Assembly (NCBI GenBank): GCA_936450465.1
Contig: OW388294.1
Coordinates: forward strand, 72,964,622 to 73,028,621
Source of the DNA: Gibbula magus
Lineage: Eukaryota; Mollusca; Gastropoda; Trochida; Trochidae
Length of the DNA stretch: 64,000 bases
Direction of reading: 5' to 3'
In this document: positions 4,039-54,418 of the stretch, one piece after another
Layout: every line of letters starts with the position of its first letter
Numbering within the stretch: the stretch's first letter is position 1
The notes under the pieces: model-generated
What the model was told of the DNA's origin: nothing
Databases searched by the model: none
The model's input: the letters and a program-made list of their open reading frames with translations, nothing else
Made by a program: the position numbers and the translations under genes

Positions 4039-4049
4039 TAATATCTTAC
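4039..4049. repeat. Target site duplication, LINE copy 1, element 3' side
   Basis: TAATATCTTAC, identical to 10953-10963. Uninterrupted class A units have a single copy (463-473 in U1). Confidence 0.92.
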
Positions 4050-4560
4050 GTTGTTGTTGCATCAAGTGCTTAATGTCGCCTTCGCCCGTTAGGCATTTCG
4101 GCAGACAGTGTCACATTGACACACATGAAAGAAAAGATTTCCAGAAGGCTAGGGTCCTGGAAAGGGCGTTCCACCTAGGAACTCATGGGGAAGATGTTAC
4201 CGGGTGTGTCACGAACAAAGTAGGCAGTTCACTTTGTTCAGGCAATTTCTATTTGGCCGTTTGGGTGATATAATTGTGCTGTTAATGTTGCGTCCCTCTA
4301 CTAGGCTGATCTTATAGGCGATTTCTATTACCCGGAGGTGCTAGTGTTTGGGCAGGGAGAAAGACCACAGTGTCAAGGTGGCTGAACATTGTGGTGAAAC
4401 CTGCGAGCTTCGGCTGGAACTAGCTAGCCAGGGGTGTTACTACATTGTTTTAATGTGGCATTGCACCCCACCTTATTGGCTGTTTATAAGGATGCCGAGC
4501 CCCTGGCGGGATTCGAACGAACGTGCCAACCACTGCACTACCCCACCGGACCCGCGGCAC
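4050..4560 (-). mobile_element. SINE-like 3' module of LINE copy 1
   Basis: 511 bp, closely matching the solo SINE at 53900-54406. On the minus strand it starts with a tRNA-like head: an A-box-like TAGTGCAGTGG (4540-4530) and a B-box-like GTTCGAATCCC (4518-4508). These are only 11 nt apart, much closer than in a real tRNA. It ends in (CAA)3. It follows ORF2 after 15 nt, so it effectively serves as the LINE 3' UTR. Confidence 0.75.
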
Positions 4561-4575
4561 ATTGATATATTTCTT

Positions 4576-7500
4576 TCATATACACTGGCCAAGGTCACTT
4601 TTCAGGAGGAGGTTGGATAAGGGCTTGTACATTTTTTGATGTTGCGAGTGCGCCAGCAGTAGCTTCGCTGTCAATGTACTTTCTCCAATCTCCTCCCTGA
4701 GTGCTTTGCGGGCCATTTCGAAACTAGGACATTCCAGTAAGACATGAGTGACACTGGCCTTGACGTGGCATGTTTGACAATTTAGGTACGAGGAGCGTGT
4801 TGCACCGAGTCTAAGTCTGGTGATCATTGTGTCTAACTGCCTGTTGTGTTTCGAGTGCATAGGTCTCGATTTCACACTGGGGCGTAGACTATGAAGCCAC
4901 CGGCCTTTAGGACTGGTGTCCCATACCTTCTGCCACTTCTTAGAGATTGAGTTTCTGATCATACTTTTGATTTCGCTTTTTGAATAAGGATAATCAGAAA
5001 TATGCTCTATCTCTAAGCCCTGACGTGCCAGTTTGTCAGCTCTTTCATTGCCTGGAATGTCTATGTGAGACGGTATCCAACATAGCTGTATCTCTTTTCC
5101 GTGAATATATTTGAGCTTGTGGAGGAGTTCTAATATATCACGTAGGGTATCTGGTCTACTGGCTGAGTTTTTTGTGGTCAGGGACTCCAATGCACTAAGG
5201 GAATCAGACAGTATTACTATCTGTCTATCTCTTAAATCTCGAGAGATTCTGAGTGCAGGGTGTATGGCCTCAAGTTCAGCTGTATATACAGATTGCCCAT
5301 TGGGGATGCGTACTGAGATACTTTGGGTATCGGATGTGCGTGCAGAGCTAATTAGGATACCATAGGCAGTTCTATTTCTCACTGGGTCCTTTGAGCCGTC
5401 AGTGTATATGTGTGCCGCGGACTCATAGAGACTGTCTATCCTGCTAAGCGCAATGCTTCGTAGCAACAGAGGGTTCTCACTTTTTGGCACTTCCTTAGTG
5501 AGACTGGTGTCTACATTTGGGGCCTGGAGTATCCACGGGGGTACCAATCCTGGTTTAAGACTTTCAGGGGGGTCTACAGTGTCACACTCGTGTTCTCGCC
5601 TTAGCAGTTGCACCCTCAACCCGCATGGCATCATGGAGGGTTTTTTGCGTGCAAGTGCTACGAGGTTCTTACTGAAGATATCCCCCGTCCATATCTTTTT
5701 AACCAATGGATTAGTACTCCTACTCCAGAAGTTTAAGGTCAATTGTTCTCTCCTTAAATCGAGTGGGAGCTCCCCTGTTTCCACTAAAAGGGCATGGAGG
5801 GAGGTTCTGGGCATTGCTCCCGTCACCAATTTAAGAGCTTTGTATTGAATCGAATCTAGTCGCTTCAGAGTCGATGGGGCAGCACTGTGGTAAGCCTCAC
5901 ACCCATAATCTATTTTGCTTCGAATAAGTGACTTGTAGAGGGTGAGCAACGTGTCACTGTTTGCTCCCCATGAAGTCCCTGACACTGCTCGCATTACGTT
6001 CAGGTCGCCTTGACATCTTACTGCCACGTGGTCAATGTGTTTTGACCACGTAAGATGTTGGTCAAAGACGACACCGAGAAATTTCGCTTCTTTCTCGAAT
6101 GCGACAGTCTTGCCCTTAAGTTGAAGCCTGGGTGTGCAGCTTACCCGGTTGCCTTTCCGTCTGAATACAACCCCCACTGTTTTCTCAGGAGAGATAATGA
6201 ACCCCCATTTGTCACACCAATTTTCGACACCATCGAGTGATTCCTGCAGCAATGTTCTAATTTTGGAAATCTCTCGGTGTCTCACCCAAACTGCCCCATC
6301 ATCAGCAAACTTTGAGGTGTTGATATACTTGCGTTCATGTACATGTTCAAAGAGATCGTCTATCATAATGTTGAAAAGCGTTGGGCTGATAATGCTTCCC
6401 TGAGGAGTGCCATTATCTAAACTGTGTCGCTCTGACAGTTTATCTCCAACCAACACTGATATTGATCGATTCTCAAGGAAACTTTGAACATAATTTGCCA
6501 TTTTCCCTTTTATACCAACATTCTCAAGTTTGGAGAGGAGTCCATCATGCCATACCATGTCAAAAGCCTTGCTAAAATCAATAAAGACAGCAGCTAGATA
6601 TTCTTTTCTTAGTTGCGCAGTCTTTATGTCATTTTCCAGGCGCAGAATATGGTCAAGACAAGAACGTTGCGGCCGAAAACCGCTCTGGTCATGAGTTAAC
6701 AGCCCTTGTGACTCTAAGTGGTACCTTAGGCGTTTGTTCACCATTGCCTCCATCGCTTTGCACAAGTTTGATGTAAGGGAAATCGGGCGATAGGGGTTGG
6801 CCGAGGCCGCCTCCTTGCCCGGTTTAAGGAGTGGTATTACTGAAGCATGTTTCCATGCGACAGGTACCTCTCCTATATCCCAAATCTTATTGTACAGTTT
6901 GATGAGGACGCCGATGATACCATCTGGTAACCTCTTAAGCATCTCATAGCTGACCATATCTTCACCTGGGCAAGTTGCTTTTCTGTTATGAATAGCATCT
7001 TTGAACTCTTCTACCGTGAAGCTGTAGTTAAAAGATAAGCCACACTGGGGGGGCTGTTTGGGTGGTTTGACTAACTTCTCTGACTTTTTAAATTCAACAG
7101 AGAAGCTATCATTGCTACTGACAGAGGCAAAGTGTTTGGCTAAAGTACTTGCTTTTTCTTTGATTGTTTTAGTGCCAGCTAATTTGGGAATGATCTGTGT
7201 TTTGCGTTTCCCTCTTATAGCATGTACTTTTTGCCAGACAGTCCTTGAGTTAGTTTTCTCATTTAACGTGCCACAGAATTCCTGCCAAGATTTTATCTTA
7301 GCTTTTGAAATTAATTCTTTGACTCGTTGCCTCGCCAGACATACTTCTCCTTTAGCAGATCGGTCACGTTTAGCCCTGTTCAATGCCTTTTTCCTAAGTT
7401 TTCGCGCTCTGGCTATTTCCTGATTCCACCAGGGGACCGATTTTACTCGTCCCCCTGATTTCCTCATTGGAATTGAAGCCCTGGATGCTTTCATCAGCGC

Positions 7501-8316
7501 TAAAGTTAGGTTTGAACAGAAAGTGTGGATATCATCAGACACTATTTCAGTTGGGTCGATCTTATTACACTCCAATCTGAACTTTGACCAATCTGCACGG
7601 GAGAAATCCCACTTTTCTGAGGGGGTGCATTCTTCCTCTAGGAGTGGTGGGATACCTAGTTGAGTGAAACACGGGCAGTGATCACTCCCCCATGTGTCAT
7701 CATGAACCTGCCAGACGCAGTCTGTGGCTAAGTCTTTTGTGGCAATAGCGAGGTCTATGGCCGACCATGTTCCGTAGTTGACACAATGTCTAGTTGGGGT
7801 ACCATCATTCAGTATAACGAGTCCCTCGGACTCGACCCAGTCCTCCACCATCCGCCCATGTGGGTCAGATCGGGTGGTGCTTTCACCCCACAGGCTGCTG
7901 TGGGCGTTGAAATCACCTAGGATTAGGCCTGAACTTCCCACCAAGTCACTGAGTTTTTTAAGTTCAGCAATTGTGGTGGGTGTTGTTACCCTATGATAAA
8001 CATTGGCGATGCGGATTCTTTTACTATTTGCCAAAACGACTGAGATGACCTGGGTTTCTAGGTTTCCCACCTTAGCTTCAATCTGAGTGGAGGTACAGTT
8101 GTCTGCAACCAACGTTACCAATCCACCACCCCTATTGTCTCTGTCTTTTCGGTATGTTATATACCCAGGAATCTGAAACTTCGCACTCTTTCCCAATTTA
8201 GCCTCTTGTATAAGGATAATATTGGGTTTCAGAACCTGCTGTCTGACTAAGGCGTTGAGTTCGTGGCCGTTCGATCTCAGTCCATTGGCATTCCATTGTA
8301 TCATTTGCAGTGCCAT
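4576..8316 (-). CDS. LINE copy 1 ORF2, endonuclease / reverse transcriptase / RNase H, 1,246 aa
   Basis: Intact retrotransposition polyprotein. The N-terminal APE-type endonuclease shows N9/N11 (WNANG), E38 (LIQEAK), GDFNAH near 137 and GSDHCP near 211. The RT has PISLTS near 508, FIDFSKAFD near 578, GTPQGSIISP near 640 and catalytic FADD near 670. RNase H has YTDGSK near 970, AELEAIH near 1013, SDSLSALE near 1037 and IPSHIDIPGNERAD near 1082. A C-X2-C...H-X4-C motif (CQTCH...HVLLEC) lies near 1187, as is common in this superfamily. Relative to copy 2 it has NPYRP for NSYRP and AIHPAL for AIHHAL. The proline in the RNase H helix is unusual and could weaken that domain. The stop codon is 15 nt before the tRNA-like 3' module. 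Confidence 0.94.
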   Translation of the reverse strand: MALQMIQWNANGLRSNGHELNALVRQQVLKPNIILIQEAKLGKSAKFQIPGYITYRKDRDNRGGGLVTLVADNCTSTQIEAKVGNLETQVISVVLANSKRIRIANVYHRVTTPTTIAELKKLSDLVGSSGLILGDFNAHSSLWGESTTRSDPHGRMVEDWVESEGLVILNDGTPTRHCVNYGTWSAIDLAIATKDLATDCVWQVHDDTWGSDHCPCFTQLGIPPLLEEECTPSEKWDFSRADWSKFRLECNKIDPTEIVSDDIHTFCSNLTLALMKASRASIPMRKSGGRVKSVPWWNQEIARARKLRKKALNRAKRDRSAKGEVCLARQRVKELISKAKIKSWQEFCGTLNEKTNSRTVWQKVHAIRGKRKTQIIPKLAGTKTIKEKASTLAKHFASVSSNDSFSVEFKKSEKLVKPPKQPPQCGLSFNYSFTVEEFKDAIHNRKATCPGEDMVSYEMLKRLPDGIIGVLIKLYNKIWDIGEVPVAWKHASVIPLLKPGKEAASANPYRPISLTSNLCKAMEAMVNKRLRYHLESQGLLTHDQSGFRPQRSCLDHILRLENDIKTAQLRKEYLAAVFIDFSKAFDMVWHDGLLSKLENVGIKGKMANYVQSFLENRSISVLVGDKLSERHSLDNGTPQGSIISPTLFNIMIDDLFEHVHERKYINTSKFADDGAVWVRHREISKIRTLLQESLDGVENWCDKWGFIISPEKTVGVVFRRKGNRVSCTPRLQLKGKTVAFEKEAKFLGVVFDQHLTWSKHIDHVAVRCQGDLNVMRAVSGTSWGANSDTLLTLYKSLIRSKIDYGCEAYHSAAPSTLKRLDSIQYKALKLVTGAMPRTSLHALLVETGELPLDLRREQLTLNFWSRSTNPLVKKIWTGDIFSKNLVALARKKPSMMPCGLRVQLLRREHECDTVDPPESLKPGLVPPWILQAPNVDTSLTKEVPKSENPLLLRSIALSRIDSLYESAAHIYTDGSKDPVRNRTAYGILISSARTSDTQSISVRIPNGQSVYTAELEAIHPALRISRDLRDRQIVILSDSLSALESLTTKNSASRPDTLRDILELLHKLKYIHGKEIQLCWIPSHIDIPGNERADKLARQGLEIEHISDYPYSKSEIKSMIRNSISKKWQKVWDTSPKGRWLHSLRPSVKSRPMHSKHNRQLDTMITRLRLGATRSSYLNCQTCHVKASVTHVLLECPSFEMARKALREEIGESTLTAKLLLAHSQHQKMYKPLSNLLLKSDLGQCI

Positions 8317-8356
8317 TATGACTTATTTGAGCTTAAATTGACAGCTTAATAATTGC

Positions 8357-10594
8357 TTATTTAAGCTTGAGAGCTTTCCTCATTTCAATGATTGAGCGCG
8401 GATATGATAGGAAAGTTGTGGTAAGTTCCCACATAAGTAGGAGTGACTTGTCAATTTCACTATCATCTTTTGTGCCTAGTTTGATTAAGGCGGCACAAAA
8501 GAATTCGACCATCTTGGGTTCAAAATGCCCACTCGCGCAGCTCTCAGAGTCATTTTTAACAGCCTGCCTATGGACTGATTCCCTATTTTGTTTAGGTTTA
8601 GGCTTGCACTGACCTTTGCCTGCGTTACCTTTGCTAGTAGGTACGTCTGTGCTGTTCGACTTAGCACTGCCGGGGATTTCCTTAGCCTTAGGAGCTCCCT
8701 TGTTTTGTTTTTTATTAGTGCTTTTAGCCTTAGCACTCGTGTTAGGTTCCACTGCCCTTTGTGGACCTTTGTTTTGTTTAGGAGTGTTCATTGCCCGTTT
8801 TGAACCTCCTTTAGTCTGACTTGTGCTGGTCGCCTTAGCACTTGGGTTGGGTTTGGCCGCAGCAGCGACCTTGCCCTTTCCCTTAGTGGTACGTTTTTTG
8901 GTCTTTTTGCGGACCACCAGTTCGAACCCATCAGATTCATCTGAGTGTGACTGTTCGCCTTTGTCACCCGTGCCTGTAACTTCTTTATTGATGTTACGTT
9001 TTTTATTTAGCCTGCTCCTGCAGAAGCTGTATAGAGACGAATGCCCTCGTTTCTTACAGGTCATACAGTAAGGTGAGCAGGCTCCTGTGCACTGGGACAG
9101 CAGTTTTGCACAAGTGCGGCACCTTGCTTGCCCTGTGCAAGATGCACGCACATGCCCATAGCTGAGACAGTTCACACATTGTCTCGGGCGTTTCTGATAA
9201 GGGAGAGTGTCAATTTCCCTATCATGAAACTTTACTGACTTTGGGGCCGTGTTCCCCAACACTGAGAGCACCACGACTCTAGTGTTTTTGCCCTGACTCT
9301 TGATGCGAAACAGAGATGTTATTGTAGGATTTTGTTTTGGGAGGGTCTGAAGATCACCATCGGTGATACTCAGGTCCAGATGAATAACACATCTGGTCTG
9401 ATTGACCCAACCTGGCACTATCCATGATAACATCTCATTTTTTATTTCAGAGGGGAGTGCCATAGAGTCCGATATTTCGTCTCCACTGACAAAATACCCT
9501 CTATTTACCCTCCTGACCTGACTTACTCGAATAGACTTTGCTAATTCCTCCTTCAGGGTTTGGGCCGTGACCCGATTGGGTAGGGAACTGTTATAGTCCA
9601 TGGAGTAGACTAAACGTTCCCAACCTGACCCTTTAGGAGGAGAGGTTTTTGCTTTCACCTTTTTAGCATTGTCTGTGGCCTTCACTTTGCCTGTCCACAG
9701 ATCCGAGCAGGTTTGGCGGTCAGATTGACTGAAACTAGCTGACTGTCTCCTAGTTTCCATCGGTTTTTGCTTAACCATTTCAGCATAACTGCTGAAAGGC
9801 TGAGATGCAACCAATTTCCTTCTCTTGGAAATGTTGGAGACAGGGCTAGGTCCAGGTCTATTCTTTCCGCTCTGGAGAGTGGTCAATTCTCCAGTTGAGC
9901 TAGGCGAGCTCGGGGTACCCCCCTGAGAGCTGGGCTGACTCTCTTGGGAGGTGGCTTCAATTCCTGACATGAACTCGAGGTCCATTTCGCTGTCAACTGT
10001 GGGCTCAGTTGCAGATATACTAACATTAATGTTCGGGGCCTGAGAGTGTGGCTGTCTCTCAGTCTCAGATACTAATGTAACTGAATTCTGACTTGAGGGT
10101 GGCAAATCCTCAGTGTCAGAACCCCGAACTATATTCAAACTCGGGATGGGCAGTCCCTTATTTTGAGTCCGAAATGGTTTTCTTAAACTAAAGTTCGGGA
10201 CCTGAGAGTTGGGCTTTCTCTCAGTTACAGATACTTTAGTACCTGAATTCTGTCTTGAGGGCGGCAATTCCTCAGAGACAGAACCCCGAACTGAAGGAAT
10301 ACTCGGGGTGGGCGGCCCCTTATGTTGAGTTTTCCTATTAATGTTAGTTTTATTGGTTTTCAGGTCCCGTGGGTTTGGCCCTGGCTTCCCCACGGTTGTG
10401 GTCACTTTCGTTTCCACATCCCGATTTACGTTGGGTTTCCCCTTAAGTAAACCAGAAACCTGAAGTACCTCTTTAGCTTTTGTCGTACTTACCAACGCCT
10501 TGGAAGGGGCTTTGGTAGTAATCTTTCCTGATGTCGCTGTGAAGATCATCCTCTCAGCTTGGCTGAAGTCCATGTTCTTAGATTTACTCCCCAT
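8357..10594 (-). CDS. LINE copy 1 ORF1, gag-like nucleic-acid-binding protein, 745 aa
   Basis: In I-superfamily elements ORF1 binds the element RNA and forms the ribonucleoprotein with ORF2. Residues 1 to about 300 are Ser/Thr/Pro-rich and probably disordered. A more structured region precedes the zinc knuckles. A canonical C-X2-C-X4-H-X4-C knuckle lies near residues 472-485 (CVNCLSYGHVRASC). A degenerate Cys-rich segment follows, and a second CCHC-like motif starts near residue 509 (CMTCKKRGHSS). The C-terminal part is Lys-rich with repeated AKA/KQNKG patterns. The frame is complete with no internal stop. The ATG is the first in a 358-nt 5' UTR. It ends 40 nt before the ORF2 start, so ORF2 would need reinitiation or a related mechanism. 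Confidence 0.9.
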   Translation of the reverse strand: MGSKSKNMDFSQAERMIFTATSGKITTKAPSKALVSTTKAKEVLQVSGLLKGKPNVNRDVETKVTTTVGKPGPNPRDLKTNKTNINRKTQHKGPPTPSIPSVRGSVSEELPPSRQNSGTKVSVTERKPNSQVPNFSLRKPFRTQNKGLPIPSLNIVRGSDTEDLPPSSQNSVTLVSETERQPHSQAPNINVSISATEPTVDSEMDLEFMSGIEATSQESQPSSQGGTPSSPSSTGELTTLQSGKNRPGPSPVSNISKRRKLVASQPFSSYAEMVKQKPMETRRQSASFSQSDRQTCSDLWTGKVKATDNAKKVKAKTSPPKGSGWERLVYSMDYNSSLPNRVTAQTLKEELAKSIRVSQVRRVNRGYFVSGDEISDSMALPSEIKNEMLSWIVPGWVNQTRCVIHLDLSITDGDLQTLPKQNPTITSLFRIKSQGKNTRVVVLSVLGNTAPKSVKFHDREIDTLPYQKRPRQCVNCLSYGHVRASCTGQARCRTCAKLLSQCTGACSPYCMTCKKRGHSSLYSFCRSRLNKKRNINKEVTGTGDKGEQSHSDESDGFELVVRKKTKKRTTKGKGKVAAAAKPNPSAKATSTSQTKGGSKRAMNTPKQNKGPQRAVEPNTSAKAKSTNKKQNKGAPKAKEIPGSAKSNSTDVPTSKGNAGKGQCKPKPKQNRESVHRQAVKNDSESCASGHFEPKMVEFFCAALIKLGTKDDSEIDKSLLLMWELTTTFLSYPRSIIEMRKALKLK

Positions 10595-10952
10595 AATGGG
10601 AATACTAAGAATTACAAATGGACGTAGTCCTCCTTTTGCGGTGATATCCTCTCCTACAGCTCCACTGTGTCGGTGTGTGTGTCCTCCTTTTAGAAAAGTT
10701 CACTAAGTTCACTCCATGAAATGTCCGAGATGAAAATCACATAAATTCCCTTTTGAATCACTCCATGTAATGTCCGTTAGTATTCCTCTTCGAAAAGTTT
10801 AACAATTCACTCCATGAATCAGTAGAAATAGTTCAAACTGTCACTCCATGAAATGTCCGTAGCTCTCTGGTCAAGAAACAAGATGGCCGCCTTTGTTTAC
10901 ATCCTCGCGCACTATGAAATACGTCTGGTTGTGTCAACAGTCAGCTGCAATC
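10595..10952 (-). promoter_or_regulatory. LINE copy 1 5' UTR with iterated motif
   Basis: TCACTCCATGAAATGTCCG (plus-strand sense) or close forms start at 10709, 10758, 10807 (shortened) and 10841, spaced 49, 49 and 34 bp. CAAGATGGCCGCC at 10879-10891 resembles a YY1 site, about 60-70 nt from the element 5' end. Iterated 5' UTR motifs often serve as promoter modules in LINEs; function here is inferred. Confidence 0.5.
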
Positions 10953-10963
10953 TAATATCTTAC
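10953..10963. repeat. Target site duplication, LINE copy 1, element 5' side
   Basis: TAATATCTTAC. The unit then resumes with AAATATCAGCTGC. Confidence 0.92.
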
Positions 10964-10975
10964 AAATATCAGCTG

Positions 10976-10983
10976 CTTATATA
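10976..10983 (-). promoter_or_regulatory. Unit TATA box next to LINE copy 1 5' end
   Basis: TATATAAG on the minus strand. Its first T (10983) is 31 nt upstream of the first LINE nucleotide (10952), the usual TATA-to-start spacing. Confidence 0.5.
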
Positions 10984-15514: not shown

Positions 15515-15548
15515 TTGTTTTACAATCAAATATTTGATAGTGCTATGT

Positions 15549-32579: not shown

Positions 32580-33090
32580 GTTGTTGTTGCATCAAGTGCT
32601 TAATGTCGCCTTCGCCCGTTAGGCATTTCGGCAGACAGTGTCACATTGACACACATGAAAGAAGAGATTTCCAGAAGGCTAGGGTCCTGGAAAGGGCGTT
32701 CCACCTAGGAACTCATGGGGAAGATGTTACCGGGTGTGTCACGAACAAAGTAGGCAGTTCACTTTGTTCAGGCAATTTCTATTTGGCCGTTTGGGTGATA
32801 TAATTGTGCTGTTAATGTTGCGTCCCTCTACTAGGCTGATCTTATAGGCGATTTCTATTACCCGGAGGTGCTAGTGTTTGGGCAGGGAGAAAGACCACAG
32901 TGTCAAGGTGGCTGAACATTGTGGTGAAACCTGCGAGCTTCGGCTGGAACTAGCTAGCCAGGGGTGTTACTACATTGTTTTAATGTGGCATTGCACCCCA
33001 CCTTATTGGCTGTTTATAAGGATGCCGAGCCCCTGGCGGGATTCGAACGAACGTGCCAACCACTGCACTACCCCACCGGACCCGCGGCAC
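32580..33090 (-). mobile_element. SINE-like 3' module of LINE copy 2
   Basis: Same 511-bp module as in copy 1, with one visible A-to-G difference near 32,663. Confidence 0.75.
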
Positions 33091-33105
33091 ATTGATATAT
33101 TTCTT

Positions 33106-36100
33106 TCATATACACTGGCCAAGGTCACTTTTCAGGAGGAGGTTGGATAAGGGCTTGTACATTTTTTGATGTTGCGAGTGCGCCAGCAGTAGCTTCGCTG
33201 TCAATGTACTTTCTCCAATCTCCTCCCTGAGTGCTTTGCGGGCCATTTCGAAACTAGGACATTCCAGTAAGACATGAGTGACACTGGCCTTGACGTGGCA
33301 TGTTTGACAATTTAGGTACGAGGAGCGTGTTGCACCGAGTCTAAGTCTGGTGATCATTGTGTCTAACTGCCTGTTGTGTTTCGAGTGCATAGGTCTCGAT
33401 TTCACACTGGGGCGTAGACTATGAAGCCACCGGCCTTTAGGACTGGTGTCCCATACCTTCTGCCACTTCTTAGAGATTGAGTTTCTGATCATACTTTTGA
33501 TTTCGCTTTTTGAATAAGGATAATCAGAAATATGCTCTATCTCTAAGCCCTGACGTGCCAGTTTGTCAGCTCTTTCATTGCCTGGAATGTCTATGTGAGA
33601 CGGTATCCAACATAGCTGTATCTCTTTTCCGTGAATATATTTGAGCTTGTGGAGGAGTTCTAATATATCACGTAGGGTATCTGGTCTACTGGCTGAGTTT
33701 TTTGTGGTCAGGGACTCCAATGCACTAAGGGAATCAGACAGTATTACTATCTGTCTATCTCTTAAATCTCGAGAGATTCTGAGTGCATGGTGTATGGCCT
33801 CAAGTTCAGCTGTATATACAGATTGCCCATTGGGGATGCGTACTGAGATACTTTGGGTATCGGATGTGCGTGCAGAGCTAATTAGGATACCATAGGCAGT
33901 TCTATTTCTCACTGGGTCCTTTGAGCCGTCAGTGTATATGTGTGCCGCGGACTCATAGAGACTGTCTATCCTGCTAAGCGCAATGCTTCGTAGCAACAGA
34001 GGGTTCTCACTTTTTGGCACTTCCTTAGTGAGACTGGTGTCTACATTTGGGGCCTGGAGTATCCACGGGGGTACCAATCCTGGTTTAAGACTTTCAGGGG
34101 GGTCTACAGTGTCACACTCGTGTTCTCGCCTTAGCAGTTGCACCCTCAACCCGCATGGCATCATGGAGGGTTTTTTGCGTGCAAGTGCTACGAGGTTCTT
34201 ACTGAAGATATCCCCCGTCCATATCTTTTTAACCAATGGATTAGTACTCCTACTCCAGAAGTTTAAGGTCAATTGTTCTCTCCTTAGATCGAGTGGGAGC
34301 TCCCCTGTTTCCACTAAAAGGGCATGGAGGGAGGTTCTGGGCATTGCTCCCGTCACCAATTTAAGAGCTTTGTATTGAATCGAATCTAGTCGCTTCAGAG
34401 TCGATGGGGCAGCACTGTGGTAAGCCTCACACCCATAATCTATTTTGCTTCGAATAAGTGACTTGTAGAGGGTGAGCAACGTGTCACTGTTTGCTCCCCA
34501 TGAAGTCCCTGACACTGCTCGCATTACGTTCAGGTCGCCTTGACATCTTACTGCCACGTGGTCAATGTGTTTTGACCACGTAAGATGTTGGTCAAAGACG
34601 ACACCGAGAAATTTCGCTTCTTTCTCGAATGCGACAGTCTTGCCCTTAAGTTGAAGCCTGGGTGTGCAGCTTACCCGGTTGCCTTTCCGTCTGAATACAA
34701 CCCCCACTGTTTTCTCAGGAGAGATAATGAACCCCCATTTGTCACACCAATTTTCGACACCATCGAGTGATTCCTGCAGCAATGTTCTAATTTTGGAAAT
34801 CTCTCGGTGTCTCACCCAAACTGCCCCATCATCAGCAAACTTTGAGGTGTTGATATACTTGCGTTCATGTACATGTTCAAAGAGATCGTCTATCATAATG
34901 TTGAAAAGCGTTGGGCTGATAATGCTTCCCTGAGGAGTGCCATTATCTAAACTGTGTCGCTCTGACAGTTTATCCCCAACCAACACTGATATTGATCGAT
35001 TCTCAAGGAAACTTTGAACATAATTTGCCATTTTCCCTTTTATACCAACATTCTCAAGTTTGGAGAGGAGTCCATCATGCCATACCATGTCAAAAGCCTT
35101 GCTAAAATCAATAAAGACAGCAGCTAGATATTCTTTTCTTAGTTGCGCAGTCTTTATGTCATTTTCCAGGCGCAGAATATGGTCAAGACAAGAACGTTGC
35201 GGCCGAAAACCGCTCTGGTCATGAGATAACAGCCCTTGTGACTCTAAGTGGTACCTTAGGCGTTTGTTCACCATTGCCTCCATCGCTTTGCACAAGTTTG
35301 ATGTAAGGGAAATCGGGCGATAGGAGTTGGCCGAGGCCGCCTCCTTGCCCGGTTTAAGGAGTGGTATTACTGAAGCATGTTTCCATGCGACAGGTACCTC
35401 TCCTATATCCCAAATCTTATTGTACAGTTTGATGAGGACGCCGATGATACCATCTGGTAACCTCTTAAGCATCTCATAGCTGACCATATCTTCACCTGGG
35501 CAAGTTGCTTTTCTGTTATGAATAGCATCTTTGAACTCTTCTACCGTGAAGCTGTAGTTAAAAGATAAGCCACACTGGGGGGGCTGTTTGGGTGGTTTGA
35601 CTAACTTCTCTGACTTTTTAAATTCAACAGAGAAGCTATCATTGCTACTGACAGAGGCAAAGTGTTTGGCTAAAGTACTTGCTTTTTCTTTGATTGTTTT
35701 AGTGCCAGCTAATTTGGGAATGATCTGTGTTTTGCGTTTCCCTCTTATAGCATGTACTTTTTGCCAGACAGTCCTTGAGTTAGTTTTCTCATTTAACGTG
35801 CCACAGAATTCCTGCCAAGATTTTATCTTAGCTTTTGAAATTAATTCTTTGACTCGTTGCCTCGCCAGACATACTTCTCCTTTAGCAGATCGGTCACGTT
35901 TAGCCCTGTTCAATGCCTTTTTCCTAAGTTTTCGCGCTCTGGCTATTTCCTGATTCCACCAGGGGACCGATTTTACTCGTCCCCCTGATTTCCTCATTGG
36001 AATTGAAGCCCTGGATGCTTTCATCAGCGCTAAAGTTAGGTTTGAACAGAAAGTGTTGATATCATCAGACACTATTTCAGTTGGGTCGATCTTATTACAC

Positions 36101-36844
36101 TCCAATCTGAACTTTGACCAATCTGCACGGGAGAAATCCCACTTTTCTGAGGGGGTGCATTCTTCCTCTAGGAGTGGTGGGATACCTAGTTGAGTGAAAC
36201 ACGGGCAGTGATCACTCCCCCATGTGTCATCATGAACCTGCCAGACGCAGTCTGTGGCTAAGTCTTTTGTGGCAATAGCGAGGTCTATGGCCGACCATGT
36301 TCCGTAGTTGACAATGTCTAGTTGGGGTACCATCATTCAGTATAACGAGTCCCTCGGACTCGACCCAGTCCTCCACCATCCGCCCATGTGGGTCAGATCG
36401 GGTGGTGCTTTCACCCCACAGGCTGCTGTGGGCGTTGAAATCACCTAGGATTAGGCCTGAACTTCCCACCAAGTCACTGAGTTTTTTAAGTTCAGCAATT
36501 GTGGTGGGTGTTGTTACCCTATGATAAACATTGGCGATGCGGATTCTTTTACTATTTGCCAAAACGACTGAGATGACCTGGGTTTCTAGGTTTCCCACCT
36601 TAGCTTCAATCTGAGTGGAGGTACAGTTGTCTGCAACCAACGTTACCAATCCACCACCCCTATTGTCTCTGTCTTTTCGGTATGTTATATACCCAGGAAT
36701 CTGAAACTTCGCACTCTTTCCCAATTTAGCCTCTTGTATAAGGATAATATTGGGTTTCAGAACCTGCTGTCTGACTAAGGCGTTGAAATCGTGGCCGTTC
36801 GATCTCAGTCCATTGGCATTCCATTGTATCATTTGCAGTGCCAT
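33106..36844 (-). pseudogene. LINE copy 2 ORF2, frameshifted in the endonuclease domain
   Basis: A 2-bp deletion near 36,311 (GTTGACAATG against GTTGACACAATG in copy 1) shifts the frame just after the PTRHC segment. The N-terminal frame (36844 down to 36230) ends at 204 codons. The remaining RT and RNase H frame is open from an internal ATG at 36336. The endonuclease would lose its SAIDLA and GSDHCP motifs, so this copy should not make a complete ORF2 protein. RT and RNase H motifs downstream are intact. Confidence 0.93.
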
Positions 36845-36884
36845 GATGACTTATTTGAGCTTAAATTGACAGCTTAATAATTGC

Positions 36885-39122
36885 TTATTTAAGCTTGAGA
36901 GCTTTCCTCATTTCAATGATTGAGCGCGGATATGATAGGAAAGTTGTGGTAAGTTCCCACATAAGTAGGAGTGACTTGTCAATTTCACTATCATCTTTTG
37001 TGCCTAGTTTGATTAAGGCGGCACAAAAGAATTCGACCATCTTGGGTTCAAAATGCCCACTCGCGCAGCTCTCAGAGTCATTTTTAACAGCCTGCCTATG
37101 GACTGATTCCCTATTTTGTTTAGGTTTAGGCTTGCACTGACCTCTGCCTGCGTTACCTTTGCTAGTAGGTACGTCTGTGCTGTTCGACTTAGCACTGCCG
37201 GGGATTTCCTTAGCCTTAGGAGCTCCCTTGTTTTGTTTTTTATTAGTGCTTTTAGCCTTAGCACTCGTGTTAGGTTCCACTGCCCTTTGTGGACCTTTGT
37301 TTTGTTTAGGAGTGTTCATTGCCCGTTTTGAACCTCCTTTAGTCTGACTTGTGCTGGTCGCCTTAGCACTTGGGTTGGGTTTGGCCGCAGCAGCGACCTT
37401 GCCCTTTCCCTTAGTGGTACGTTTTTTGGTCTTTTTGCGGACCACCAGTTCGAACCCATCAGATTCATCTGAGTGTGACTGTTCGCCTTTGTCACCCGTG
37501 CCTGTAACTTCTTTATTGATGTTACGTTTTTTATTTAGCCTGCTCCTGCAGAAGCTGTATAGAGACGAATGCCCTCGTTTCTTACAGGTCATACAGTAAG
37601 GTGAGCAGGCTCCTGTGCACTGGGACAGCAGTTTTGCACAAGTGCGGCACCTTGCTTGCCCTGTGCAAGATGCACGCACATGCCCATAGCTGAGACAGTT
37701 CACACATTGTCTCGGGCGTTTCTGATAAGGGAGAGTGTCAATTTCCCTATCATGAAACTTTACTGACTTTGGGGCCGTGTTCCCCAACACTGAGAGCACC
37801 ACGACTCTAGTGTTTTTGCCCTGACTCTTGATGCGAAACAGAGATGTTATTGTAGGATTTTGTTTTGGGAGGGTCTGAAGATCACCATCGGTGATACTCA
37901 GGTCCAGATGAATAACACATCTGGTCTGATTGACCCAACCTGGCACTATCCATGATAACATCTCATTTTTTATTTCAGAGGGGAGTGCCATAGAGTCCGA
38001 TATTTCGTCTCCACTGACAAAATACCCTCTATTTACCCTCCTGACCTGACTTACTCGAATAGACTTTGCTAATTCCTCCTTCAGGGTTTGGGCCGTGACC
38101 CGATTGGGTAGGGTACTGTTATAGTCCATGGAGTAGACTAAACGTTCCCAACCTGACCCTTTAGGAGGAGAGGTTTTTGCTTTCACCTTTTTAGCATTGT
38201 CTGTGGCCTTCACTTTGCCTGTCCACAGATCCGAGCAGGTTTGGCGGTCAGATTGACTGAAACTAGCTGACTGTCTCCTAGTTTCCATCGGTTTTTGCTT
38301 AACCATTTCAGCATAACTGCTGAAAGGCTGAGATGCAACCAATTTCCTTCTCTTGGAAATGTTGGAGACAGGGCTAGGTCCAGGTCTATTCTTTCCGCTC
38401 TGGAGAGTGGTCAATTCTCCAGTTGAGCTAGGCGAGCTCGGGGTACCCCCCTGAGAGCTGGGCTGACTCTCTTGGGAGGTGGCTTCAATTCCTGACATGA
38501 ACTCGAGGTCCATTTCGCTGTCAACTGTGGGCTCAGTTGCAGATATACTAACATTAATGTTCGGGGCCTGAGAGTGTGGCTGTCTCTCAGTCTCAGATAC
38601 TAATGTAACTGAATTCTGACTTGAGGGTGGCAAATCCTCAGTGTCAGAACCCCGAACTATATTCAAACTCGGGATGGGCAGTCCCTTATTTTGAGTCCGA
38701 AATGGTTTTCTTAAACTAAAGTTCGGGACCTGAGAGTTGGGCTTTCTCTCAGTTACAGATACTTTAGTACCTGAATTCTGTCTTGAGGGCGGCAATTCCT
38801 CAGAGACAGAACCCCGAACTGAAGGAATACTCGGGGTGGGCGGCCCCTTATGTTGAGTTTTCCTATTAATGTTAGTTTTATTGGTTTTCAGGTCCCGTGG
38901 GTTTGGCCCTGGCTTCCCCACGGTTGTGGTCACTTTCGTTTCCACATCCCGATTTACGTTGGGTTTCCCCTTAAGTAAACCAGAAACCTGAAGTACCTCT
39001 TTAGCTTTTGTCGTACTTACCAACGCCTTGGAAGGGGCTTTGGTAGTAATCTTTCCTGATGTCGCTGTGAAGATCATCCTCTCAGCTTGGCTGAAGTCCA
39101 TGTTCTTAGATTTACTCCCCAT
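36885..39122 (-). CDS. LINE copy 2 ORF1, 745 aa
   Basis: Intact. Nearly identical to copy 1 ORF1; the changes I see are S-to-T in the MDYNS(S/T)LPN segment and K-to-R in NAG(K/R)GQC. Zinc knuckles are preserved. Confidence 0.9.
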   Translation of the reverse strand: MGSKSKNMDFSQAERMIFTATSGKITTKAPSKALVSTTKAKEVLQVSGLLKGKPNVNRDVETKVTTTVGKPGPNPRDLKTNKTNINRKTQHKGPPTPSIPSVRGSVSEELPPSRQNSGTKVSVTERKPNSQVPNFSLRKPFRTQNKGLPIPSLNIVRGSDTEDLPPSSQNSVTLVSETERQPHSQAPNINVSISATEPTVDSEMDLEFMSGIEATSQESQPSSQGGTPSSPSSTGELTTLQSGKNRPGPSPVSNISKRRKLVASQPFSSYAEMVKQKPMETRRQSASFSQSDRQTCSDLWTGKVKATDNAKKVKAKTSPPKGSGWERLVYSMDYNSTLPNRVTAQTLKEELAKSIRVSQVRRVNRGYFVSGDEISDSMALPSEIKNEMLSWIVPGWVNQTRCVIHLDLSITDGDLQTLPKQNPTITSLFRIKSQGKNTRVVVLSVLGNTAPKSVKFHDREIDTLPYQKRPRQCVNCLSYGHVRASCTGQARCRTCAKLLSQCTGACSPYCMTCKKRGHSSLYSFCRSRLNKKRNINKEVTGTGDKGEQSHSDESDGFELVVRKKTKKRTTKGKGKVAAAAKPNPSAKATSTSQTKGGSKRAMNTPKQNKGPQRAVEPNTSAKAKSTNKKQNKGAPKAKEIPGSAKSNSTDVPTSKGNAGRGQCKPKPKQNRESVHRQAVKNDSESCASGHFEPKMVEFFCAALIKLGTKDDSEIDKSLLLMWELTTTFLSYPRSIIEMRKALKLK

Positions 39123-39480
39123 AATGGGAATACTAAGAATTACAAATGGACGTAGTCCTCCTTTTGCGGTGATATCCTCTCCTACAGCTCCACTGTGTCG
39201 GTGTGTGTGTCCTCCTTTTAGAAAAGTTCACTAAGTTCACTCCATGAAATGTCCGAGATGAAAATCACATAAATTCCCTTTTGAATCACTCCATGTAATG
39301 TCCGTTAGTATTCCTCTTCGAAAAGTTTAACAATTCACTCCATGAATCAGTAGAAATAGTTCAAACTGTCACTCCATGAAATGTCCGTAGCTCTCTGGTC
39401 AAGAAACAAGATGGCCGCCTTTGTTTACATCCTCGCGCACTATGAAATACGTCTGGTTGTGTCAACAGTCAGCTGCAATC
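39123..39480 (-). promoter_or_regulatory. LINE copy 2 5' UTR
   Basis: Carries the same four iterated motifs, the last at 39369-39387, and the YY1-like site as copy 1. Confidence 0.5.
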
Positions 39481-49014: not shown

Positions 49015-49446
49015 ATGAATCTTTATAGTACATGTATCATTGGCAATGAACCCGGTTTTTCTAGATCAACACGGAATGGTCAGAACATGTCCGATTCAAC
49101 AAAGAACAGTGATGGTTATGAACCCATGGAAAATCCACGTCTCAGCCATTCTTCCTGTTCAGTGAGGACCAGTGTGTATCATGGTCCCTTACACAAACTT
49201 CAAATGTCTGAAAGACCTCGGCAAATTATGCAAGACTCTAGTTAGGAGGACATGTTGTTGAATGAAACTAGTCAACTATCAAAATCCCCAAGAAGCAAAC
49301 CAGTTTTAGGCATCCGTGCTAAAATAATTCAAAGCAACCTAGTTCAGAATGGAAATCAAGATACCTTCATCAAGAAAGAATTTAGAAACATTGAGGCATT
49401 CGTCTTGGAGAATGTGACTGCTTTCAAAAGAGGAAGTTTTGGCTGA
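49015..49446 (+). pseudogene. ORF B of U20, interrupted at codon 77
   Basis: Same TAG as U19, plus Q-to-H (PLHKLQ). The second part is 49252-49446. Confidence 0.5.
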
Positions 49447-49890
49447 AACACCATGCGGAAACCGGTCCATCCATTCCACAAACAAACTTTCACATTCGTC
49501 TAGTTGTTTTACAATCAAATATTTGATAGTGCTATGTTCGGAAAACTGTTGATTTTGTAAAAATCCCATTGAAGCCAAATAAGAATAGAATGATATTTCA
49601 ATTGGTGTATATGATGTGTGATCTGGTATGTTCTCTAGTCAGAAAGTTATGTTGTCTCCGTGTACATTTGCAAGTTCACTCAAGGAATAAAAACAAAGGA
49701 ATATCAACTTGTTTTTCACTCTTTTATTATCTTTGTGTTCAACAAAGGTGACTTTCAATATTATAAAATAACCTTTCGCTAAGGAAAACAAAGTAACATC
49801 GCATACAATACATCAACAACATAGGATTATTGAAAATAGCAATGAAAATATACGACAACACGATAACAAGGGTAAAGGTGACATTGCATG

Positions 49891-50262
49891 TCAGCACAGT
49901 GTACACTTGAATCCGTTTTTCATATATGTTTTCAGTTCATGAGCAGATGATACGGATATCACAGATTCTCCTTTCACATGTGTGAATCTATTAAATGATG
50001 GTCCGTGCCATGGATATTTCTGAAGAGGTTTTCTCGTACTCTGCCTTGTTTGGATATTCCTCTGAAACTGACGTTGTCGTTGTACACGTGTAGAGTCTTC
50101 CTGACAGGCTGTGACAGTGTTATTCAGATCAGTAACTGAATCTCTCTTCCTGCAGCAGGCACAAGTGACGTTCGAAGACACATGGCTCTCCAACCACATC
50201 TTAACCTTTTTCATGGCCTTTCGGGAACTGGAAGACATCTTAACATTTCCAGAGTATTCCAT
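49891..50262 (-). CDS. ORF A of U21
   Basis: 123 codons with P71Q and A87G. The promoter side has the 14-bp deletion in the TCF-like cluster. Confidence 0.4.
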   Translation of the reverse strand: MEYSGNVKMSSSSRKAMKKVKMWLESHVSSNVTCACCRKRDSVTDLNNTVTACQEDSTRVQRQRQFQRNIQTRQSTRKPLQKYPWHGPSFNRFTHVKGESVISVSSAHELKTYMKNGFKCTLC

Positions 50263-50821
50263 TGTACGTGTAGAAAAGGGTGTGTATAGTTTGAAGGATG
50301 AAGGTGAAATAATATATTACCAATATCAGCTGCTTATATACACACCATCAAGACTGTCAAAACACAATGTGAGTAGTGTGAATGCACATGCAGTCAATCA
50401 GCACATTTTCCGCTATTTGTAAAGATCAAAGGGGAATGTCCGTCACTTTGATCACATTAATTATGCGGCTATACTTCAAAGAATACTTCAATTAATGAAG
50501 GTGATTGGTTTGAATGTTGATTCTTTTCTACTATCCGGTGCTATCCTTCTACAAATGGCTTTTGATCTCTTCTCCTTCTATTGAAATACAAATAATCCGA
50601 TTGTGTAGATAATAAACGCTTCTTTACACACTCTCATATTGTAAAAACGTACTCATTGATTTCGTTGTTTTAGGTAAAAAGATCATGTTACCAGGTAAAA
50701 GTATGTTTCGATACATAAACTCATGTAATGAACGTGTGATTACGTGTCTTTTTTATGTTCTGGATATAAGACATTGACATCGTCGAACCCCTGTTAAACT
50801 CTTCATGTTCAGTGAGCAGTT

Positions 50822-51289
50822 ATGAATCTTTATAGTACATGTTTCATTGGCAATGAACCCGGTTTTTTTAGATCAACACGGAATGGTCAGAACATGTCCG
50901 ATTCAACAAAGAACAGTGATGGTTATGAACCCATGGAAAATCCACGCCTCAGCCATTCTTCCTGTTCAGTGAGGACCAGTGTGTATCATGGGCCCTTACA
51001 AAAACTTCAAATGTCTGAAAGACCTCGGCAAATTATGCAAGACTCTAGTCAGGAGGACATGTTGTTGAATGAAACTAGTCAACTATCAAAATCCTCAAGA
51101 AGCAAACCAGTTTTAGGCATCCGTGCTAAAATAATTCAAAGCAACCTAGTTCAGAATGGAAATCAAGATACCTTCATCAAGAAAGAATTTAGAAACATTG
51201 AGGCATTCGTCTTGGAGAATGTGACTGCTTTCAAAAGAGGAAGTTTTGGCAGAAAGACCATGCGGAAATCGGTCCATCCATTCCACTAA
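50822..51289 (+). CDS. ORF B of U21, 155-codon form
   Basis: I8F and S15F. Codon 144 is AGA, and a TAA created by CCACTAAC ends the frame early. Confidence 0.33.
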   Translation: MNLYSTCFIGNEPGFFRSTRNGQNMSDSTKNSDGYEPMENPRLSHSSCSVRTSVYHGPLQKLQMSERPRQIMQDSSQEDMLLNETSQLSKSSRSKPVLGIRAKIIQSNLVQNGNQDTFIKKEFRNIEAFVLENVTAFKRGSFGRKTMRKSVHPFH

Positions 51290-51697
51290 CAAACTTTCAC
51301 AGTCGTCTAGTTGTTTTACAATCAAATATTTGATAGTGCTATGTTCTGAAAACTGTTGATTTTGTAAAAATCCCATTGAAGCCAAATAAGAATACAATGA
51401 TATTTCAATTGGTGTATATGATGTGTGATCTGGTATGTTCTCTAGTCAGAAATTTATGTTGTCTCCGTGTACATTGGCAAGTTCACTCAAGGAATAAAAA
51501 CAAAGGAATATCAAATTGTTTTTCACACTTTTATTATCTTTGTGTTCAACAAAGGTGACTTTCAATATTATAAAATAACCTTTCGCAAAGGAAAACAAAG
51601 TAACATCGCATACAATATATCAACAACATAGGATTATTGAAAATAGCAATGAAAATGAACAACAACACGATAACAAGGGTAAAGGTGACATTGCATG

Positions 51698-52069
51698 TCA
51701 GCACAGTGTACACTTGAATCCGTTTTTCATATATGTTTTCAGTTCATGAGCAGATGATACGGATATCACAGATTCTCCTTTCACATGTGTGAATCTATTA
51801 AATGATGGTGCGTGCCATGGATATTTCTGAAGAGGTTTTCTCGTACTCTGCCTTGTTTGGATATTCCTCTGAAACTGACGTTGTCGTTGTACACGTGTAG
51901 AGTCTTCCTGACAGGCTGTGACAGTGTTATTCAGATCAGTAACTGAATCTCTCTTCCTGCAGCAGGCACAAGTGACGTTCGAAGACACATGGCTCTCCAA
52001 CCACATCTTAACCTTTTTCATGGCCTTTCGGGAACTGGAAGACATCTTACCATTTCCAGAGTATTCCAT
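51698..52069 (-). CDS. ORF A of U22
   Basis: 123 codons with V7G and P71Q. The promoter side has the same 14-bp deletion as U21. Confidence 0.4.
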   Translation of the reverse strand: MEYSGNGKMSSSSRKAMKKVKMWLESHVSSNVTCACCRKRDSVTDLNNTVTACQEDSTRVQRQRQFQRNIQTRQSTRKPLQKYPWHAPSFNRFTHVKGESVISVSSAHELKTYMKNGFKCTLC

Positions 52070-52596
52070 TGTACGTGTAGCAAAGGGTGTGTATAGTTTG
52101 AAGGATGAAGGTGAAATAATATATTACCAATATCAGCTGCTTATATACACACCATCAAGACTGTCAAAACACAATGTGAGTAGTGTGAATGCACATGCAG
52201 TCAATCAGCACATTTTCCGCTATTTGTAAAGATCAAAGGGGAAAGTCCGTCACTTTGATCACATTAATTATGCGGCTATACTTCAAAGAATACTTCAATT
52301 AATGAAGGTGATTGGTTTGAATGTTGATTCTTTTCTACTATCCGGTGCTATCCTTCTACAAATGGCTTTTGATCTCTTCTCCTTCTATTGAAATACAAAT
52401 AATCCGATTGTGTAGATAATAAACGCTTCTTTACACACTCTCATATTGTAAAAACGTACTCATTTATTTCGTTGTTAAAAGATCATGTTACCAGGTAAGA
52501 GTATGTTTCGATACATAAACTCATTTTTTATGGTCTGGATATAAGACATTGACATCGTCGAACCCCTGTTAAACTCTTCATGTTCAGTGAGCAGTT

Positions 52597-53085
52597 ATGA
52601 ATCTTTATAGTACATGTATCATTGGCAATGAACCCGGTTTTTCTAGATCAACACGGAATGGTCAGAACATGTCCGATTCAACAAAGAACAGTGATGGTTA
52701 TGAACCCATGGAAAATCCACGCCTCAGCCATTCTTCCTGTTCAGTGAGGACCAGTGTGTATCATGGTCCCTTACAAAAACTTCAAATGTCTGAAAGACCT
52801 CGGCAAATTATGCAAGACTCTAGTCAGGAGGACATGTTGTTGAATGAAACTAGTCAACTATCAAAATCCCCAAGAAGCAAACCAGTTTTTAGCATCCGTG
52901 CTAAAATAATTCAAAGCAACCTAGTTCAGAATGGAAATCAAGATACCTTCATCAAGAAAGAGTTTAGAAACATTGAGGCATTCGTCTTGGAGAATGTGAC
53001 TGCTTTCAAAAGAGGAAGTTTTGGCAGAAAGACCATGCGGAAATCGGTTCATCCATTCCACAAACAAACTTTCACAGTCGTCTAG
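52597..53085 (+). CDS. ORF B of U22, 162-codon form
   Basis: L-to-F and G-to-S changes give PVFSIRAK. Confidence 0.33.
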   Translation: MNLYSTCIIGNEPGFSRSTRNGQNMSDSTKNSDGYEPMENPRLSHSSCSVRTSVYHGPLQKLQMSERPRQIMQDSSQEDMLLNETSQLSKSPRSKPVFSIRAKIIQSNLVQNGNQDTFIKKEFRNIEAFVLENVTAFKRGSFGRKTMRKSVHPFHKQTFTVV

Positions 53086-53394
53086 TTGTTTTACAATCAA
53101 ATATTTGATAGTGCTATGTTCTGAAAACTGTTGATTTTGTAAAAATCCCGTTGAAACCAAATAAGAATACAATGATATTTCAATTGGTGTATATGATGTG
53201 TGATCTGGTATGTTCTCTAGTCAGAAAGTTATGTTGTCTCCGTGTACATTGGCAAGTTCACTCAAGGAATAAAACCAAAGGAATATCAAATTGTTTTTCA
53301 CTCTTTTATTATCTTTGTGTTCAACAAAGGTGACTTTCAATATTATAAAATAACCTTTCGCAAAGGAAAACAAAGTAACATCGCATACAATACA

Positions 53395-53841
53395 TCAACA
53401 ACATAGGATTATTGAAAATAGCAATGAAAATGAACAACAACACGATAACAAGGGTAAATGTGACATTGCAGCCAGCACAGTGTACACTTGAATCCGTTTT
53501 TCATATGTTTTCAGTTCATGAGCAGATGATACGGATATCACAGATTCTCCTTTCACGTGAGTGAATCTATGAAATGATGGTGCGTGCCATGGATATTTCT
53601 GAAAAGGTTTTCTCGTACTCTGCCTTGTTGGGATATTCCTCTGAAACTGACGTTGTCGTTGTACACGTGTGGAGTCTTCCTGACAGGCTGTGACAGTGTT
53701 ATTCAGATCAGTAACTGAATCTCTCTTCCTGCAGCAGGCACAAGTGACGTTCGATGACACATGGCTCTCCAACCACATCTTAACCTTTTTCATGGCCTTT
53801 CGGGAACTGGAAGACATCTTAACATGTCCAGAGTATTCCAT
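53395..53841 (-). CDS. ORF A of U23, extended 148-aa form, downstream of the solo SINE
   Basis: Compensating deletions and hydrophobic tail as in U6, with N6H, L80F and N91H. The SINE 3' end at 53900 is 58 nt upstream of the ATG. Confidence 0.36.
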   Translation of the reverse strand: MEYSGHVKMSSSSRKAMKKVKMWLESHVSSNVTCACCRKRDSVTDLNNTVTACQEDSTRVQRQRQFQRNIPTRQSTRKPFQKYPWHAPSFHRFTHVKGESVISVSSAHELKTYEKRIQVYTVLAAMSHLPLLSCCCSFSLLFSIILCC

Positions 53842-53887
53842 TGTACGTGTAGCAAAGGGTGTGTATAGTTTGAAGGATGAAGGTGAA

Positions 53888-53899
53888 ATAATATATTAC
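53888..53899. repeat. Target site duplication, solo SINE, element 3' side
   Basis: ATAATATATTAC, identical to 54407-54418. Same unit position as the LINE target. Confidence 0.9.
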
Positions 53900-54406
53900 G
53901 TTGTTGCATTAAGTGCTTAATGTCGCCTTCGCCCGTTAGGCATTTCGGCAGACAGTGTCACATTGACACACATGAAAGAGAAGATTCCAGAAGGCTAGGG
54001 TCCTGGAAAGGGTGTTCCACCTAGGAACTCATGGGGAAGGTGTTACCGGGTGTGTCACGAACAAAGTAGGCAGTTCACTTTGTTCAGGCAATTTCTATTT
54101 GGCCGTTTGGGTGATATAATTGTGCTGTTAATATTGCGTCCCTCTACTAGGCTGATCTTATAGGCGATTTCTATTACCCGGAGGTGCTAGAGTTTGGGCA
54201 GGGAGAAAGACCACAGTGTCAAGGTGGTTGAACATTGTGGTGAAACCTGCGAGCTTCGGCTGGAACTAGCTAGCCAGGGGTGTTACTACATTGTTTTAAT
54301 GTGGCATTGCACCCCACCTTATTGGCTGTTTATAAGGATGCCGAGCCCCTGGCGGGATTCGAACGAACGTGCGAACCACTGCACTATCCCACCGGACCCG
54401 CGGCAC
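53900..54406 (-). mobile_element. Solo tRNA-headed SINE (or 5'-truncated LINE) in U23
   Basis: 507 bp flanked by 12-bp duplications ATAATATATTAC (53888-53899 and 54407-54418). On the minus strand it begins with GTGCCGCGGGTCCGG, then A-box-like (54386-54376) and B-box-like (54364-54354) motifs, and ends in (CAA)2. The duplicated target has the local class B base (ATATATTAC) rather than the ATATCTTAC of U3 and U15, so it is an independent insertion. It shares its full length with the LINE 3' module. It could be a SINE mobilised by the LINE or a LINE copy truncated at the tRNA-like head. Confidence 0.85.
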
Positions 54407-54418
54407 ATAATATATTAC
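54407..54418. repeat. Target site duplication, solo SINE, element 5' side
   Basis: ATAATATATTAC, followed by CAATATCAGCTGC of the unit. Confidence 0.9.

Follow-up and report, generated by a model that had tools for sequence, protein, structure and literature searches.

Among long interspersed nuclear elements (LINEs), homing to ribosomal DNA (rDNA), telomeres or transfer RNA (tRNA) genes is a known behavior. Most reported target-specific LINE families fall into three groups, early-branched, Tx1 and R1, and the target-specific elements of the R1 and Tx1 clades carry apurinic/apyrimidinic (APE) endonucleases (excerpt of PMC4640811). At genes of RNA polymerase III (Pol III), the yeast retrotransposon Ty3 integrates at the transcription start, with TBP and Brf1 required in vitro, and the ORF1 protein of TRE5-A interacts with TBP, Brf1 and Bdp1 (excerpt of PMC5911963). 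Across the molluscs studied, Nimb and Ingi are reported to be the only I-superfamily clades beside one unknown clade (excerpt of PMC10294476). Here we analyze a LINE present in a 64,000-nucleotide (nt) stretch of Gibbula magus contig OW388294.1 (positions 72,964,622 to 73,028,621; hereafter the window), which contains tandem units of ~1.79 kb and ~1.82 kb (array A). Judged from sequence comparison, this APE-type LINE very probably uses TATA-containing core promoters at many genomic locations as integration sites, inserting in the direction of transcription. No TATA- or start-site-targeted LINE was found in the literature searched, a limited search that does not establish absence from print; the word 'TATA' occurs 0 times in PMC3747384, PMC4640811, PMC13269885 and PMC10294476.

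Spacing between TATA-like boxes and LINE insertions

The 66 LINE flanks examined fall into 39 families, only one of which is the satellite of array A. The 5′ flanks, taken for 31 of the 33 LINE 5′ ends (the remaining two belong to the window copies U3 and U15), are mostly unrelated to one another, yet nearly all have a TATA-like box just upstream. Target duplications were defined by pairing 5′ and 3′ flanks. Among 20 anchored insertions, the distance from the first T of the box to the start of the duplication was 20 nt in 11, 19 nt in four, 21 nt in four and 17 nt in one, and the duplication ended 27-33 nt after the box start, mostly at 31 nt. The first-strand junction thus lies 19-21 nt, rarely 17-18 nt, after the first T. 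A box stood at 19-21 nt in 19 of 21 insertions, with the sense bins from 22 to 69 nt empty, against a background of 0.93% for this spacing in the 40 kb left of array A on both strands (binomial P about 5e-37, with sites treated as independent). When insertions were grouped by target family, the spacing held in 14 of 16 (P about 4e-27).

Similar results were obtained with all 29 duplication-supported copies, comprising 27 that include 5′-truncated copies together with L094 and L100. A box was located at 17-21 nt in 25 of them (23 of 27 before the last two were added; background 1.5%), and asymmetric boxes at this spacing numbered 18 in the LINE direction and 0 reversed. Fixed spacing and fixed orientation relative to a core promoter element, as expected of a promoter-targeted retroelement, are therefore both present. 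Because the 5′ flanks are unlike while the duplications match, the box belongs to the host. TATA-like boxes were also seen by eye upstream of the older copies L113, L115, L117 and L118, whose 5′ ends are 89-92% identical. Base counts around the nick revealed an A/T block spanning -20 to -14. The idea of a strong sequence motif at the nick itself was considered and rejected, the only candidate being T at -3. Similarly, 3′ transduction as the origin of the shared flanks is disfavored, since the duplications agree with the 5′ flanks and both of the tandem arrays described below contain uninterrupted sites.

The insertion site of array A is predicted by the same rule. On the minus strand of the unit, TATATAAG lies exactly 20 nt upstream of the insertion site, so that a TATA box plus about 20 nt in the sense direction specifies the position in the satellite. 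The 3′ ends of U3, U15 and the short insert U23 all follow the same TTAC on the minus strand, and the junction coordinates (Table 1) confirm the initial annotation, which had placed the LINE and the short insert at the same base and strand of the unit. Its view of U15 as a duplicate of U3 also holds: the two LINEs are 99.8% identical, and their flanking units are mutual best matches among the window units (99.9% and 99.7%), so we count U3 and U15 as one event. U3 and U23, in turn, are independent because they differ in local base and 3′ untranslated region (UTR) allele. At the right end of array A, 78 kb right of the window, the 3′ junction of a third LINE (96.8-97.0% identity to U3) falls on the same base; this copy has a rearranged 5′ side and an internal deletion. 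The earlier count of at least two independent events thereby rises to at least three, and array A contains three independent events (four filled sites) at one base and on one strand. None of three further inserts in array A lies at that base. The chance of about 1 in 3,600 formerly attached to this coincidence is inapplicable, since insertion is not a uniform draw but follows a TATA box.

A second tandem array (array B, C8:47297887-47513284) has a unit of ~1.59 kb with small open reading frames (ORFs), one unit of which is L144. Its TATA site is present in 108 uninterrupted copies. The seven LINE insertions in array B share one direction and have 3′ junctions within a few nt of one another; both junctions were read in four. 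The unit of array B gave no blastn match to that of array A and no match in Rfam.

Several observations weigh against promoter targeting or limit its precision. The antisense pattern also matches 13 of the 29 copies; TATATA is self-complementary, and the evidence for orientation consequently comes from the 18 asymmetric boxes and from the 5′-side position of the box in the 25. Duplications lacking a TATA-like box at 17-21 nt occur in four copies (L109, L134, L142 and L143), although in L134 the 6-nt duplication may belong to the tail and in L142 TATAAAAA is present on the 3′ side instead. No supported duplication was found in L096, which has a box directly upstream, or in L121 and L137, and the tail of another LINE precedes L093 and L116. 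L122 and L123 were left out of scoring; a box is visible in L122, and L123, the oldest copy (77%), yielded neither junction nor box. There is a mild preference for T three nt before the duplication (12/21). In several copies, 3-30 nt of extra sequence separate the duplication from the LINE, as in L100, where a 13-nt duplication is followed by 30 extra nt, and the LINE 5′ end is therefore not placed exactly at one base. The searches were biased to young, conserved copies. Finally, the start sites are placed by TATA spacing, and guidance by TBP or RNA polymerase II (Pol II) is putative.

Putative host promoters and the proposed guidance of the LINE

Gene evidence is confined to a minority of flanks. 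The downstream flanks of L069 (E 1e-7), L082 (4e-5) and L059 (3e-5) open FLYWCH frames above the Pfam cut-off, while L058 opens a FLYWCH frame below it (E 0.003) and L086 a PHD-finger frame just below it (E 5e-5). The downstream frame of L073 is related to the minus-strand ORF of the satellite (14 of 35 residues identical). Insertion points thus apparently lie near gene starts, as placed by TATA spacing, and we infer that the TATA-like boxes are working Pol II promoters. Gene starts downstream of the sites support a putative guidance of the LINE by TBP or the initiation complex over direct reading of TATA.

At Pol II promoters, transcription begins ~30 nt beyond the first base of the TATA box, and DNA melting in the open complex covers roughly -9 to +2. 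On this scale, TBP or the Pol II initiation complex would guide the LINE to the promoter, the endonuclease would cut the template strand close to where melting begins on the upstream side (about -10), and a second nick near the start site would yield a duplication (-10 to about +1) corresponding to the transcription bubble. Since duplication and bubble would then coincide, an endonuclease brought to, or entering, the initiation complex would give these junctions. In a full-length copy the 5′ end would fall close to the host start site, which would allow the host promoter to transcribe the LINE. Array A would be hit repeatedly at one base because its units share a TATA promoter and offer many redundant targets. 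Overall, we lean slightly towards a metazoan LINE that targets the Pol II pre-initiation complex, with nicks at the bubble edges setting the duplication length and the 5′ end at ~+1, and that would live on captured TATA promoters of single genes, mobile elements and tandem gene arrays with no promoter of its own.

Direct reading of TATA by the LINE's own protein, with cleavage at a measured distance and without promoter factors, would produce a fixed TATA-to-nick distance equally well, and the nick itself carries no strong motif. We nonetheless consider this rather unlikely. On each strand, roughly 0.3% of positions carry a member of the motif set (derived from 0.93% per three-position window), and chance sites should then far outnumber promoters. 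In contrast, six flanks (the FLYWCH, PHD and satellite-related cases above, two of them below the Pfam cut-off) open frames, and two tandem arrays are targeted.

U23 is best read as a 5′-truncated LINE copy. The initial annotation called U23 a solo SINE (short interspersed nuclear element), but the insert matches the LINE 3′UTR end to end at 97%. When the 1.47-Gb genome was searched with U23 (best 40 scored of 1588 first-look candidates), 39 of the 39 matches listed outside the window were preceded by the ORF2 end. A pattern search for the head of the 3′UTR, allowing at most one mismatch (spent in 65 of 67 places on the LINE's own A three bases upstream), returned 67 places on 17 of contigs C1-C18. 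Four of these lie in array A (U3, U15, U23 and the array end). The other 63, together with L067, make up 64 head-bearing copies outside the array (L029-L092), and each of these proved to be joined to a LINE (63 by script, L088 by eye). U23 is thus the only head-bearing copy without a LINE body. No free, LINE-less SINE was found among the 64 outside copies with this head search, in which diverged copies were not searched for, and the partner SINE once proposed has no separate counterpart at the stringency searched. A tail search (at most two mismatches) gave 109 places, exceeding the head count; among the 100 matches listed, 20 tail places without a matched head comprise 11 that continue into the LINE and nine 5′ truncations. 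These nine scatter through the 3′UTR or the extreme end of ORF2, starting at LINE positions 6339, 6344, 6407, 6483, 6485, 6519, 6532, 6774 and 6844.

It is improbable that U23 is instead a true SINE product, namely a Pol III transcript begun inside the LINE 3′UTR and mobilized by the LINE. U23 does begin exactly at the head (LINE position 6393), whose letters we take to resemble box A and box B, and the one-mismatch head search, with the weak matches in L027, leaves room for diverged free copies. The potato TS SINE, which has a tRNA-like head and aligns from end to end with the 3′ terminus of an RTE LINE, provides a precedent (excerpt of PMC3747384). However, no second such copy was found, the other 5′ truncations scatter over the same stretch, and neither Rfam (E up to 5) nor ARAGORN (run on the window in its bacterial setting) found a tRNA, leaving box-like letters only; an Rfam scan of the window was likewise unproductive. 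L027 itself, right of array A (window coordinates 149871-151347), matches the middle of the LINE 3′UTR at 78-89% over 38-101 nt and possibly represents a domain common to other elements.

Spread of the same-site array copies from one insertion by duplication or gene conversion is true of U15 and would suit the near-identical flanks of the pairs L082/L083, L086/L087 and L064/L065, but it has very little probability as a general account. Tail length, local base or 3′UTR allele distinguishes U3, the array-end LINE and U23 from one another, and the junctions and tails of array B differ among most of the seven insertions; L036 and L056 share a junction and tail and have different 5′ ends. Duplication as the cause of all same-base insertions was rejected, U3, the array end and U23 being distinct.

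The initial annotation proposed a site-specific LINE with a partner SINE adapted to the satellite, in the manner of R elements in rDNA. Its specificity for position and strand stands, with at least three independent events at one base of one array, whereas adaptation to the satellite is now scarcely credible. The satellite is one of 39 families among 66 flanks, and 0 of the 64 head-bearing copies outside the array lack a LINE body. Copies at unrelated sites had been named as speaking against the proposal, and the great majority of the examined copies lie outside array A at unrelated sequences. Unlike R1 or R2, most copies do not share one defined target sequence. Equally remote is random insertion with survival only of copies under TATA promoters, which could be the sole breeders, since 5′-truncated copies unable to breed are placed alike (L124, L129, L135, L141 and U23) and the nick is positioned within 1-2 nt, beyond what survival would set.

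If promoter targeting is correct, a LINE placed by the Pol II TATA box would be for Pol II what TRE5 and Ty3 are for Pol III. Such placement would explain near full-length LINE RNA wherever the LINE lands, provide a natural record of TATA boxes engaged in the germ line, and offer a system for testing how an endonuclease gains access to open promoters. The case also illustrates that repetition of one promoter along a tandem gene array can make a LINE look satellite-specific.

Features of the LINE, its targets and array A

The LINE (6.9 kb in U3) has the characteristics of an APE-type non-LTR (long terminal repeat) retrotransposon, with endonuclease and reverse transcriptase in one ORF, target duplications and 5′ truncation. 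ORF1 gave no Pfam match at or above the curated cut-off and shows CCHC-type finger spacing by eye. ORF2 matches PF14529/PF03372, PF00078 and PF00075 and has 78 relatives, the best at 68% over 99% and the third-best, a Haliotis asinina protein, at 69% over 69% of the query, which points to a probable molluscan host. Residues invariant in an alignment with nine relatives include E38, Y107, D135, N137, D212 and H213, which we take to be the usual APE catalytic motif positions. A search of the PDB with the endonuclease part gave no match. The RNase H domain is presumably compatible with the I superfamily.

Table 1. Coordinates of LINE copies, target duplications, TATA boxes and reading frames in the window.
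Feature	Position	Strand	Remarks
LINE copy U3	4050..10952	-	ORF1, ORF2, 3′UTR with (CAA)n end; 5′ end close to the start site expected for the unit minus-strand promoter
U3 target duplication, LINE 3′ side	4039..4049		TAATATCTTAC on +
U3 target duplication, LINE 5′ side	10953..10963		TAATATCTTAC copy
TATA box TATATAAG, unit minus-strand promoter at U3	10976..10983	-	first T 20 nt from duplication
LINE 3′UTR (earlier called SINE)	4050..4560	-	head 15 nt after ORF2 stop
ORF2	4576..8316	-	1246 aa; APE-type endonuclease, reverse transcriptase, RNase H
ORF1	8357..10594	-	745 aa
LINE copy U15, segmental duplicate of U3	32580..39480	-	ORF2 frame broken into two ORFs, 33106-36336 and 36230-36844
Short insert U23	53900..54407	-	LINE 3′UTR only
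U23 target duplication, left copy	53889..53899		TAATATATTAC
U23 target duplication, right copy	54408..54418		TAATATATTAC
TATA box TATATAAG at U23	54431..54438	-	20 nt upstream of duplication
Plus-strand ORF, reference unit	56756..57244	+	162 aa
Minus-strand ORF, reference unit	57632..58003	-	123 aa plus stop

Flanks with hammerhead-like CTGATGA...GAAAC sequences form two more recurrent target families, without a match in an Rfam search. Hammerhead-like repeats (CTGATGA/TTGATAA...CGAAACGTCG) were noted in the 3′ flanks of L032, L042, L061, L067, L070, L071 and L077, of L037, L051 and L063, and of L052 and L060; in those with a 5′ flank available, a TATA box stands about 35-45 nt upstream. In L093/L070 and in L116 the 5′ flank is the 3′ tail of another LINE, as expected from the same promoter used twice. 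The 3′ flank of L041 (C12:29916679-29917427) resembles LINE ORF2 by eye and would represent insertion into the element's own copy.

Read from the window plus 200 kb of flank, array A spans ~200 kb and contains 93 near-full units (script extraction). Two unit subtypes (about 1789 and 1821 bp) are intermixed, with window positions 19998-23638 and 44859-64000 set apart from the rest, and the 1821-bp subtype predominates on the right side of the array. The insertion-site pattern (at most three mismatches) has 97 copies in the genome, all within array A, three of which are the TATA side of the filled units U3, U15 and U23. The ATG of the minus-strand ORF lies 78 nt after the TATA start, and a ratio of nonsynonymous to synonymous polymorphism (pN/pS) of 0.54 points to mild constraint. 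For the 162-aa plus-strand ORF, pN/pS is 0.81 among the 93 units, indicating weak constraint at most, and the frame is broken in many of them; Pfam gave no match for the two units tested, and a homologue search found none.

At the right end of array A, five successive shortened units of ~930 bp (C6:73099293-73106699, window coordinates 134672-142078) correspond to unit positions 701-1636 and adjoin the array-end LINE. Elsewhere in the array, L013 (window coordinates -51134 to -50843; unit position ~536) is a ~290-bp insert resembling a miniature inverted-repeat transposable element, with inverted repeats seen by eye. L015 (window coordinates -33464 to -31309) is a ~2.2-kb insert ending in (TGT)n; it takes the place of part of a unit, away from the TATA site.

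Comparison with described elements

In contrast to the potato TS SINE, no dispersed free SINE copies were found for the present LINE. The RNase H domain in its ORF2 presumably fits the I superfamily, a likeness to Nimb and Ingi. These clades differ in that promoter targeting goes unmentioned for them in the excerpt of PMC10294476. The LINEs R1/R2, Utopia and those of the Tx1 clade likewise insert recurrently at one position of multicopy genes, but they recognize a particular gene sequence, whereas the unlike sites of the present LINE share a TATA box at fixed spacing. Ty3 resembles it in being placed relative to initiation factors, with such guidance proposed for the present LINE; as an LTR retrotransposon, however, Ty3 differs in integration chemistry and in polymerase. 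TRE5-A and its relatives in Dictyostelium, likewise non-LTR elements of the APE type, also keep a fixed distance to a promoter when they insert, but their targets are Pol III genes and they insert 40-54 bp upstream (excerpt of PMC5911963). The present LINE, in contrast, is found at TATA boxes, several of them upstream of protein-coding frames, with its junction at the expected start site.

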